From an uncultured Treponema sp. (GTDB lineage: Bacteria > Spirochaetota > Spirochaetia > Treponematales > Treponemataceae): DNA of 40,228 nucleotides. Made by a program: the position numbers and the translations under genes. Location of the stretch: the NCBI GenBank assembly GCA_947174385.1, contig CAMWIU010000005.1, forward strand, positions 1 through 40,228, read 5' to 3'. This document shows positions 1,164 through 40,065 of the stretch, one piece after another. Under the pieces are notes generated by a model. It saw only the letters and a list, made by a program, of their open reading frames with translations. It was not told the origin of the DNA and searched no databases. Within the stretch, counting starts at the first letter, position 1, and every line of letters begins with the position of its first letter.

Positions 1164-3287
1164 ATGAAAAAGAAATGGATTGCCGCGCTTGCGGCAATGG
1201 TGCTTGCGACGGCGGTGTTTGCAGCGAAACCGTCGTTCCCTTCATATCTTATTATGAAAGGAACAACAGTGAAAGGGTATACAGACGGATTGCCCGCAAA
1301 CCTCATAATCCCAGACGGTGTGACGAAAATCGATGATGAAGCGTTCCGTGGCTGTACATCGCTTACGAGTGTTACGATTCCTGGTAGCGTGAAGAAAATC
1401 AACGACGAGGCATTCGCTGACTGTACTTCGCTCACAAGTGTGACGATTGCCGACGGCGTGAAGGAAATAGGCTGGTTTGCGTTCAGGGGGTGCAGGAGAC
1501 TTGCGAGCGTGACGATAGGCAAAGGCATTGCTGAAATCGGTAATCAGGTGTTCGGTGATTGCACATCGCTTGCGAGTATTACGATTCCAAGCAGTGTGAA
1601 GGAAATCGATGGTGATGCATTCAAGGGCTGCAGGTCGCTCAGGGAAATACAATTCGGCGGCACGATAGCGCAATGGAAGGAAAGCTCACCAAGACAGCTC
1701 TATGATGTTCAAAGCATCCGATGCGGCAATGGTTTCATTGGCGTTAAAGAAGCTCCCGAGTATCTCGAAATAAGTGGTACAGAAGTGAAGGGGTATACTG
1801 GCAAAATTCCAGCAGATGTTATCATTCCCGATGGCGTGACGGAAATCGATAACGGTGCGTTCAGTGACTGCACATCGCTTGTTAGTGTGACGATTTCGTA
1901 TGGCGTGAGGGGAATCAACAGGGAGGCGTTTGCTGGATGCACGTCACTCAAGGAAATACAATTCAAAGGCACGATGGCGCAGTGGAAGGCAGTTGATGAA
2001 AGTGCCAAAATACTGGCTTCATTTGTCCGCTGTAGCGACGGTAACATAGGCATCGCAGATGTTCCTGCGTTCCTTGTAATGGAAGGCACGAAAGTGACGG
2101 GATATACTGGCAAAGTTCCCGCGAATCTCGTCATTCCCGAGGGCGTGACGGAAATCGGCTACAATGCTTTCAAAGACTGCGCGTCGATTGAAAGTGTCGC
2201 TATTCCTACTAGCGTGACGGCAATCCAAGGAAGCGACGGAGTAAAAGTTCCATGTATCCTTTGTAGCGACGGCTACATAGGTATAAAAGAAGTTCCCGCG
2301 TACCTCAAGATGGACGGTACGAAAGTGACTGGATATACCGGCAAAGTTCCAGCAAATATCGTCATTCCCGACGGGGTGACGGAAATCAGAGGAGATGCGT
2401 TTAAGAATTGTATGTCGCTTGAAAGCGTTACGATTTCGGGCAGTGTAACTGAAATTGGCGATGCTGCATTCTCTGGTTGCACGTATCTTGAGCGTGTGAC
2501 GATTGCCGACGGAGTGACAAAAATCTCTAGTTCAATGTTTTCTGGCTGTAAGTCACTCAAGAGTGTGAGTATCCCCAACAGCGTGACGGAAATTGACAAC
2601 GCCGCGTTCTTTGGTTGCGCAGGTCTTACGGATGTTACTATTCCAGGCAGCGTTAAGGAAATAGGCAAATACTGGACTTATGAGGGGGGTGTGTTCGAAG
2701 GCTGCACCTCGCTAACAAGTGTGACGATAGCCGAGGGCGTTACGGGCATCGGTGCGCGTATGTTTAAGGACTGCACTTCGCTTGCAAGCATTACCATTCC
2801 CGACAGCGTGACGTACATCGGCGGCGGTGCGTTCTTTGGCTGCACGGCACTTAAGAACATTGCAATTCCTGCCAGCGTGGAAGGAATCTACGCAGCAGAA
2901 ATCTCCACCTATAATGGCAAACTGTATTTAGGTGCGTTCGAGGGGTGCACATCTCTTGTGCGCGTAACGATTCCTGACAGCGTGACGAAAATCTATGCAC
3001 ATGCCTTCAAAGGTTGTACGTCGCTTCGAAGCGTTACGATTCCGCGCGGTGTGACGGAAGTCGGCGACTATGCGTTCTCTGGTTGCAAGTCACTTGTGAG
3101 TGTGAGTATTCCACTCAGCGTGATGAAAATCGGTTACGCGGCGTTCGAAAAGTGTCTAAACCTCAAGGTTCAGTATGACGGCACTAAGGCGCAGTGGGGC
3201 GCAATCTCAAAGGCAGAAAATTATTATTTTCCAACAATAGGTACTTTCACTGTCCAGTGCACGGATGGCGTAGTCACTGAAAGATAA
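1164..3287 (+). CDS. secreted BspA-like leucine-rich-repeat protein
   Basis: 707 aa with a clear Sec signal peptide at 1-21 (MKKKWIAALAAMVLATAVFA). The mature protein is almost entirely LRR_5/BspA repeats of about 23 residues (pattern: aF-gCtsL.svtIP.sVt.Ig). Four longer modules, starting near residues 26, 198, 301 and 378, share the pattern YL-M-GT-V-GYTGK-PAN-IPDGVTEI and are each preceded, from the second on, by a linker like ILCSDGYIGIKEV. The third module is shortened: it lacks the GT-AQWK segment found in the first two, as expected from unequal recombination. The start has a good ribosome-binding site (AGAGGAG at 1152-1158). Proteins of this family act as adhesins in oral and gut bacteria; here that is inference. 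It is the intact paralogue of the gene ending at 294. Confidence 0.9.
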   Translation: MKKKWIAALAAMVLATAVFAAKPSFPSYLIMKGTTVKGYTDGLPANLIIPDGVTKIDDEAFRGCTSLTSVTIPGSVKKINDEAFADCTSLTSVTIADGVKEIGWFAFRGCRRLASVTIGKGIAEIGNQVFGDCTSLASITIPSSVKEIDGDAFKGCRSLREIQFGGTIAQWKESSPRQLYDVQSIRCGNGFIGVKEAPEYLEISGTEVKGYTGKIPADVIIPDGVTEIDNGAFSDCTSLVSVTISYGVRGINREAFAGCTSLKEIQFKGTMAQWKAVDESAKILASFVRCSDGNIGIADVPAFLVMEGTKVTGYTGKVPANLVIPEGVTEIGYNAFKDCASIESVAIPTSVTAIQGSDGVKVPCILCSDGYIGIKEVPAYLKMDGTKVTGYTGKVPANIVIPDGVTEIRGDAFKNCMSLESVTISGSVTEIGDAAFSGCTYLERVTIADGVTKISSSMFSGCKSLKSVSIPNSVTEIDNAAFFGCAGLTDVTIPGSVKEIGKYWTYEGGVFEGCTSLTSVTIAEGVTGIGARMFKDCTSLASITIPDSVTYIGGGAFFGCTALKNIAIPASVEGIYAAEISTYNGKLYLGAFEGCTSLVRVTIPDSVTKIYAHAFKGCTSLRSVTIPRGVTEVGDYAFSGCKSLVSVSIPLSVMKIGYAAFEKCLNLKVQYDGTKAQWGAISKAENYYFPTIGTFTVQCTDGVVTER

Positions 3288-38881: not shown

Positions 38882-39050
38882 CCCCCCCCCACATATACGC
38901 TTTACGTTGTGGGGGAGGGGGATTTTGATTCGCGCGGAGGGTTTCATACCCCGACGCTCTGCGTCGCAATAAAGGGTATAAACCCGACTGCAACACCTTA
39001 TGAGAACAACAAACGCCGACGCTTCGCGTCGGGGTTTGTTGATTCGCGCG
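38882..39050. repeat. hairpin-rich intergenic block after the barrel gene
   Basis: First a C9 tract at 38882-38890 with ACA...TGTGGGGG pairing. Then two hairpins with trinucleotide tips: CGACGC-TCT-GCGTCG flanked by GGGTTT/AAACCC arms (about 38940-38986), and CCGACGC-TTC-GCGTCGG extended by AACAAAC/GTTTGTT (about 39008-39041). GATTCGCGCG occurs at both ends (38927-38936 and 39041-39050), as a direct repeat around the two hairpins. No gene. Confidence 0.6.
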
Positions 39051-39128: not shown

Positions 39129-39530
39129 ATGAATCAAGAAGACGCGATTATTGAAATTTTCAAAAAGGCGAATGAATGCATTCCTGTTTTTCAGGCGATG
39201 GCTGATTCCGAGCGGCTTTTTATTTTGCTCAAACTTTTTTACGCCGGCCCGCGCGGAAAAAACGTTGCCGAAATTTCCGACAAAACGCGCCTTTCGCGTC
39301 CCGCCATTTCCCACCATCTGAAAGTTCTGAAAGCGGCGAAAATAATCGATTCGCGCAAAGAAGGAACGCAAATTTATTACACCTTGAATTCAACGGAAAA
39401 ACTTTCGCTCGTGGAAGATCTGCTCAAAAAACTTTACGAACGCTTGGAAGTCATCGACGCGAATTTTGAAGAGATGAATGGCGAAGTAGTGGCACGAATA
39501 ATTTCTCGAGCACAGGCTTTGTTGAAATAA
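39129..39530 (+). CDS. ArsR-family transcriptional regulator
   Basis: 133 aa. Winged helix-turn-helix: MADSERLFILLKLFYAG (helix 1-2), VAEISDKTRLSRPAISHHLK (recognition helices), then the wing ID.RKEGTQIYYTL. ArsR-type proteins are dimeric repressors that release DNA on binding metals or other ligands. No Cys-rich metal site of the classic ArsR type (CVC) is visible, so the ligand is unlikely to be arsenite. GGAAGGGAA (39116-39124) precedes the ATG. It may repress the RND operon through the palindrome at 33619-33634. Confidence 0.9.
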   Translation: MNQEDAIIEIFKKANECIPVFQAMADSERLFILLKLFYAGPRGKNVAEISDKTRLSRPAISHHLKVLKAAKIIDSRKEGTQIYYTLNSTEKLSLVEDLLKKLYERLEVIDANFEEMNGEVVARIISRAQALLK

Positions 39531-39803
39531 GCAAGCCACGTTTGTCTTGGGAGGGGAAAGCCTTCCCCTCGCTCCAGCCCGCTCGCGCGGTCTTTTGCTA
39601 CCCCTTCTCCTAGGGGCGCAGCCCCTAAAACCCTGCGCAAGCGTTCATTTCGGCTCGGTCGCTTGCGCGGCTTGTTCAATGAACGGCGACAACGACGGTA
39701 TAAGCATTGTTCCACTGTGACTTGATCTTGTCGAAAACACCGCTATATGAATAAAGCGGTTTTGGGTTCAAATTCTTTCAGGGAATTAGACGGAATTCAT
39801 TCA
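39531..39803. other. non-coding, GC-rich hairpin region
   Basis: Holds AGGGGAAAGCCTTCCCCT, and TAGGGGC-GCA-GCCCCTA (39611-39627). GCGCAAGCGTTCATTTCGGC (39635-39654) begins a 28-bp sequence that recurs at 40038-40065 with one mismatch. No gene. Confidence 0.6.
39635..39662. repeat. 28-bp direct repeat, left copy
   Basis: Matches 40038-40065 at 27 of 28 positions (G against A at base 7). The two copies bracket the 22-bp array. Confidence 0.75.
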
Positions 39804-40025
39804 AAAGATACAGTCTTTTGGTCTGAAAGATACAGTGATTTGAACCGAAAGATACAGTCTTTTCGTCCGAAAGATACAGTGTTTCATGGGTAAAAGATAC
39901 AGTCTTTCGGACCGAAAGATACAGTGATTTGGATCAAAAGATACTATCTTTTACCCCTAAAAATGCCCTTTTTTGCCCAAAAAGATACAGTGTTTTGAAC
40001 CGAAAGATAGTATCTTTTAACTATC
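39804..40025 (+). repeat. array of ten 22-bp units (AAAGATACAGT core)
   Basis: Units begin at 39804, 39826, 39848, 39870, 39893, 39915, 39937, 39959, 39981 and 40003: period 22 with one 23. The core AAAGATACAGT is exact in seven; 39937 and 40003 are variants with the perfect palindrome AAAGATA(C/G)TATCTTT, and 39959 is decayed. Odd- and even-numbered units differ in the second half (GTCTTTT type against GTGATTT type), so the older unit may be 44 bp. No reading frame runs through it. Confidence 0.9.
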
Positions 40026-40037
40026 TTTCCAAAATTC

Positions 40038-40065
40038 GCGCAAACGTTCATTTCGGCTCGGTCGC
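40038..40065. repeat. 28-bp direct repeat, right copy
   Basis: See the left copy at 39635-39662. Same orientation, 403 bases apart. Confidence 0.75.

Follow-up and report, generated by a model that had tools for sequence, protein, structure and literature searches.

A dispersed intergenic array of phased 22-bp dyad units in an uncultured Treponema and its relatives, possibly a platform for a host protein

The window, i.e. the whole analysed stretch of 40,228 nt from an uncultured Treponema sp. (genome G000), ends on the right where its contig ends (position 40228) and carries close to that end an array of short tandem units at 39804-40024. The nearest upstream gene, at 39129..39530 on the plus strand, encodes an ArsR-family HTH regulator (Pfam HTH_5, E 4.5e-9) and lies outside the element. 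Directly left of the array, at 39764..39803 on the plus strand, flank comparison over 13 loci identifies a cap left over from a unit of another kind, 'type B' (CAAATTCTTTCAGGGAATT...). By the same kind of comparison the right flank (40025..40065, plus strand; CTTTCCAAAATTCGCGCAAACG...) is partly common to other copies, the stretch GACGCTTYGCYARAATTCGCGC being found at several arrays. A 28-bp direct repeat with one mismatch (39635-39662 and 40038-40065) surrounds the array, as an earlier sequence-only reading had observed; it looks like an ordinary dispersed GC-rich repeat and not an array-specific boundary. Two further abundant interspersed repeats lie nearby, one of about 125 bp at 38919-39045 containing ccccgacgctctgcgtcg...cgacgcttcgcgtcgggg, the other at 39550-39640 (gggaggggaaagccttcccctcgctccagccc), and both have many copies in the genomes G088, G061 and G078, with identities of up to 91% for the first. 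At the other end of the window, a 69-bp tandem repeat at 1309-1468 lies within a long open frame (1164-3287) and is probably a protein repeat.

The array comprises ten units, starting at 39804, 39826, 39848, 39870, 39893, 39915, 39937, 39959, 39981 and 40003, seven of which begin with an exact AAAGATACAGT. Units 1-4 (39804..39892) and 5-6 (39893..39936), all on the plus strand like the rest of the array, carry the AAAGATACAGT core, and unit 5 is the start of a block conserved at six loci. Unit 7 (39937..39958) is made up of a perfect 15-bp palindrome, AAAGATACTATCTTT at 39937-39951, and the spacer TACCCCT. Unit 8 (39959..39980), a conserved variant, is a special CCC-containing unit, AAAAATGCCCTTTTT plus TGCCCAA. 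Unit 9 (39981..40002) returns to the AAAGATACAGT core, and unit 10 (40003..40024) pairs a second perfect palindrome, AAAGATAGTATCTTT at 40003-40017, with its spacer. The ten units of about 22 bp, the seven unchanged cores, the two palindromes and the 44 bp between the seventh and ninth units (39937 to 39981) were thus all correctly read from the letters, and the alternation of two unit versions, of C/G type, holds for units 1-6. The strict 22-bp period was overstated: the steps are 22 bp throughout except from unit 4 to unit 5 (39870 to 39893), where the step is 23 bp. Near-matches to AAAGATACAGT number 19 in the window against 7.4 expected, a count reached by none of 100 shuffles. Run on the real window, a detector for phased AAAn9TTT chains finds this array alone; run on some 400 kb resampled from the window by a Markov model, it finds nothing comparable. 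The array is real and beyond chance.

Copies of the element are dispersed over unlinked intergenic loci. Within the window's own genome they lie on contigs C5, C95 and C24; the C95 array has 10-11 units and neighbours a gene for a HicB-like antitoxin, and the C24 copy has two units and lies upstream of luxS. G088 has copies on C1 and C26 (a duplicated segment), C8, C13, C29 and C31, and G061 on C20, C62 and C72 plus a single unit on C5. A strict two-unit pattern is found in 3 of 196 genus genomes, and a DNA search has hits in 4 of 200, of which the one in G193 is weak. In that genome, 22-bp-spaced AAAAGAGGTGTTTTTTGTTCC units, weakly similar to the special unit, lie upstream of a ParA-like ATPase gene (L051, C41:4890-4934). 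Between recurring end modules the number of internal modules varies from 2 to 11: a type B unit (AAATCCTTTAGGGAATCCGTC and similar) caps the left side of nearly every array of AAAGATACAGT-like (type A) units, and a right cap is present at several loci. Six loci in three species share a six-unit block, the 22-bp special unit included, that can be aligned with no internal gap and has a mean identity of 83%; whole multi-unit blocks have therefore been copied between loci. The series of steps 23-22-22-44-22 between AAAGATACAGT-like cores recurs in related arrays, with the 23-bp step at the same place. The eighth unit, taken from the letters alone to be decayed, is of a type also kept at that place on G088 C26 and C8, G061 C20 and C62, and G000 C95.

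Almost all of the arrays are intergenic. Of those with both neighbours visible, 27 have co-directional, 13 convergent and 9 divergent flanking genes, the proportions expected if there is no preference. All-against-all BLAST of 119 flanking proteins found recurrence only at orthologous loci, among common ABC transporters and for PDDEXK_2 in G122. In this last species, four of eight arrays adjoin copies of a PDDEXK_2 (Rpn-like) gene that are 74-93% identical (L133, C2:1-500; L129, C13:454600-458500; L130, C18:1-600; L131, C22:84700-86000); other species lack the association. A coding origin was rejected, the period being no multiple of 3 and almost no array being crossed by a long open frame; exceptions are one array in G174 and, in G088, a frame that extends across the end of one gene. 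The window array is accordingly one copy of a dispersed intergenic element without a fixed neighbour gene. A simple expanding repeat, which the sequence-only reading had set against its own interpretation, would be confined to one strain, variable in unit number and without fixed neighbour; the last two properties are found here, and the first is not.

Sister species keep an array at two orthologous loci while its core letters change. G088 C29:79077-81236 is the ortholog of the window at 37.4-39.5 kb (87% and 84% identity), and the array at the corresponding place aligns nearly gaplessly to that of the window, with near-equal length and register. It consists of about eight type B units (AATCCTTTGAGGTTT and similar), a run of which occupies the place of the window's left cap, and has type A only in its last two units, whereas the window has ten type A units. 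At the luxS locus, where the protein region is 93% identical between G088 and G000, type B-like units number five in G088 and one in G000, accompanied by one type A-like unit in the former and by two type A units in the latter. Such a change is most simply explained by gene conversion from another array, and a coordinated shift under a binding protein is possible. That spacing and genomic place are kept while letters change suggests that the spacing itself matters.

The same plan, a 15-bp dyad AAAn9TTT followed by a 7-bp spacer, is found in many species on different cores, among them AAACCAGTCTGGTTT, AAAGGTAGTACCTTT, AAATCCAGTGCGTTT and AAACCTTACTGTTTT. Besides the genus itself it extends to at least two more genera of the family, and beyond the family it turned up in isolated cases only. 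A generic four-unit pattern (AAAn9TTTn7, two mismatches allowed) matches 44 of 200 genus genomes, and its reversed control matches about as many, so that low match counts mean little and reliance is placed on genomes with high counts and on a sample drawn blind to arrays. Matches to pattern and control number 56 and 1 in G169, 8 and 0 in G122, 6 and 0 in G182, 12 and 0 in G076, and 6 and 0 in G107, and each of these genomes has unmistakable dispersed arrays with cores of its own. Examples from other genera of the family are G486, whose arrays are long, and G387 (a single contig of 3.06 Mb), in which five scattered chromosomal loci have the core AAACCTTACTGTTTT. The remaining 156 of the 200 genus members lack a four-unit match; thus the arrays are not essential. 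The collected arrays comprise 340 steps, 286 of them of 22, 29 of 21 and 15 of 23 bp, a distribution conditioned on the detector; likewise, conservation of the exact plan is partly a matter of ascertainment, AAAn9TTT having been the search pattern.

Within the 15-mer, the inner four pairs are palindromic far beyond shuffles in most species. The mean number of inner pairs matched, out of four, is 2.72 in G169 against 1.09 in shuffles (sd 0.09), 2.86 against 1.11 (0.16) in G122, 2.17 against 1.03 (0.14) in G088 and 1.78 against 1.05 (0.22) in G000. Dyads of the 7-bp spacer are likewise in excess in several species, and symmetry centres consequently fall about every 11 bp. Within some arrays one unit is the exact reverse complement of another, e.g. 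AAATGCTATTGATTT and AAATCAATAGCATTT in G078. Predicted curvature over 88-bp stretches exceeds that of dinucleotide shuffles (mean z 2.5 over 64 arrays), a rise which follows in part from the selection for AAA/TTT; over the whole window array it is not raised. For A-tracts the signal is strongest at 11 bp, in part by construction.

Period length was also surveyed without reference to arrays, by running Tandem Repeats Finder on 1.2 Mb from seven family genomes picked by coordinates alone, five of the genomes having themselves been picked for carrying arrays. Intergenic tandem repeats with periods of 10-60 bp fall at 20-23 or 40-46 bp in 16 of 20 cases, compared with 16 of 71 in 0.39 Mb from other Spirochaetota families (Fisher p 4e-6, and 5e-5 after related-looking families were collapsed by eye), a comparison of small numbers in which the control is dominated by one genome (G234). 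The family repeats are of unrelated sequence, several without clear dyads, so it is period length and not sequence that recurs. Intergenic tandem repeats of 41 bp, about four helical turns, with long palindromes (CTCGCCGACGCGAG...; TTCCGCAGGGCAACTTGGCATG...) are present in G088 and G387 (L257, 3676-3797; L271, 14980-15151; L288, 583-713).

The reading tentatively placed first is that of a modular, BOX-like intergenic repeat whose phased dyads bind a symmetric host protein, with recombination spreading and homogenising the copies. A copy would have from 2 to 11 internal modules of 22 bp, preceded by a type B unit as left cap and often followed by a right cap, each internal module joining a 15-bp dyad site (AAAnnnn n nnnnTTT) to a 7-bp spacer that often has a dyad of its own, such that symmetry centres would lie on one face of the helix at intervals of about 11 bp. 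The array may then serve as a multi-site platform to which a dimeric or oligomeric host protein binds cooperatively, and may structure the nucleoid, insulate or regulate locally. Phasing and symmetry would be under selection that maintains the plan, while the letters of the core would drift and give way to blocks copied in from other arrays, through gene conversion or duplication. Binding to a protein, which had been proposed from the phasing alone, is still the best reading of that phasing, and has indirect support from the plan kept despite core change, the dyad excess and the bias towards two or four helical turns. Among known kinds of element, the one most alike in build is BOX of Streptococcus pneumoniae and S. 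suis, which is intergenic, dispersed, organised as boxA - boxB n - boxC and strain-variable in copy number (PMC3049150). Both have end modules round variable internal repeats. The Treponema array is itself not a BOX element: it belongs to another phylum, its internal module is a 22-bp DNA dyad with species-variable letters on a constant plan, its caps are short and inconstant, and an RNA structure is unsupported by covariation.

Nearly as likely is that the arrays are neutral or selfish repeats arising by duplication biased to whole helical turns, with no function needed, because the period bias reaches repeats that lack clear dyads. Slippage or recombination, on DNA that is supercoiled or bridged by proteins and with palindromes assisting, would yield intergenic tandem repeats of 21-23 and 41-46 bp, which ectopic recombination would spread and homogenise. 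The variable unit number, the lack of a fixed neighbour, the absence of arrays from most genus members and the frequency with which arrays break assemblies all accord with such an origin. It fits less well with the strong dyad excess in several families of arrays, with the persistence of arrays at orthologous places despite core change, and with the special CCC unit, which holds its position in six arrays.

An action at the RNA level, in which transcribed stem-loops would, for example, attenuate or terminate transcription or stabilise 3' ends, as has been suggested for BOX elements, is improbable. Plus-strand RNA of the window array does fold far better than shuffles (z -4.3, -6.2), as does that of several other species, and in one sequence three basal pairs of a stem have changed on both sides. 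However, a DNA dyad yields such folds anyway, and the arrays of G037 fold no better than shuffles (z -0.5). Over six homologous arrays the covariation term is unfavourable (+3.5 kcal/mol) and several pairs are broken, so a conserved RNA structure is unsupported; a stem-loop conserved between copies, the mark of BOX proper, is not found. The arrays have no orientation bias relative to genes, and no Rfam family matches them. Taken together, the curvature and folding results agree better with an element acting as DNA than with one acting as RNA, though they are no proof.

A REP/BIME-type element mobilised by a RAYT (Y1) transposase would likewise be palindromic, intergenic, dispersed and clustered, as in enterobacteria. 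This affiliation is very unlikely here: Y1_Tnp is present in 61 of 196 genus genomes, which include neither the window's genome nor the array-rich G088, G122, G169 and G076, and the near-constant direct tandem phasing at 22 bp sets the arrays apart. Hardly to be credited either are replication iterons or the partition centromere of a plasmid or integrated element, the former having been put forward in the sequence-only reading. Theta plasmid iterons are also direct repeats of about 22 bp, and the weak G193 match adjoins a ParA-like gene, but an adjacent Rep gene and a single origin per replicon would be expected of iterons, and instead there are several chromosomal copies per genome, with varied, housekeeping neighbours and no Rep gene nearby. 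No array match was found among 72,556 plasmids, in a phage collection or in viral contigs. Weakest is a cluster of LytTR regulator sites, also suggested earlier from the ACAGT letters spaced at about 22 bp, which are limited to the window's lineage: elsewhere the plan is kept with unrelated cores, no regulator gene recurs beside the arrays, and described LytTR sites are single pairs of direct repeats in promoters, 11-13 bp apart just upstream of a -35 box (PMC6193735), as against arrays of up to 16 units here.

Cooperative arrays with many phased sites for one oligomerising protein do exist, e.g. ParR-parC and the direct repeats of BldC. The Treponema arrays differ in that no such protein was found next to them and in that their units alternate in orientation as dyads. 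No description of arrays of the present kind was found in the open-access literature covered by the search.

Conserved spacing with changing sequence is hard to explain for ordinary minisatellites. A bolder and rather doubtful extension of the binding platform is a Treponemataceae-wide class of elements, helically phased dyads read by a host protein family with fast-changing specificity. Were this true, place, phase and symmetry would stay while the recognised core is replaced genome-wide, a logic comparable to that of fast-evolving satellites and their binding proteins in eukaryotes. If the arrays are not platforms, duplication in these genomes would be biased to whole helical turns, which bears on the origin of tandem repeats. 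If they are protein platforms, they would indicate that a large group of bacteria of the gut and mouth has a chromosome-organising or regulatory system not described before.
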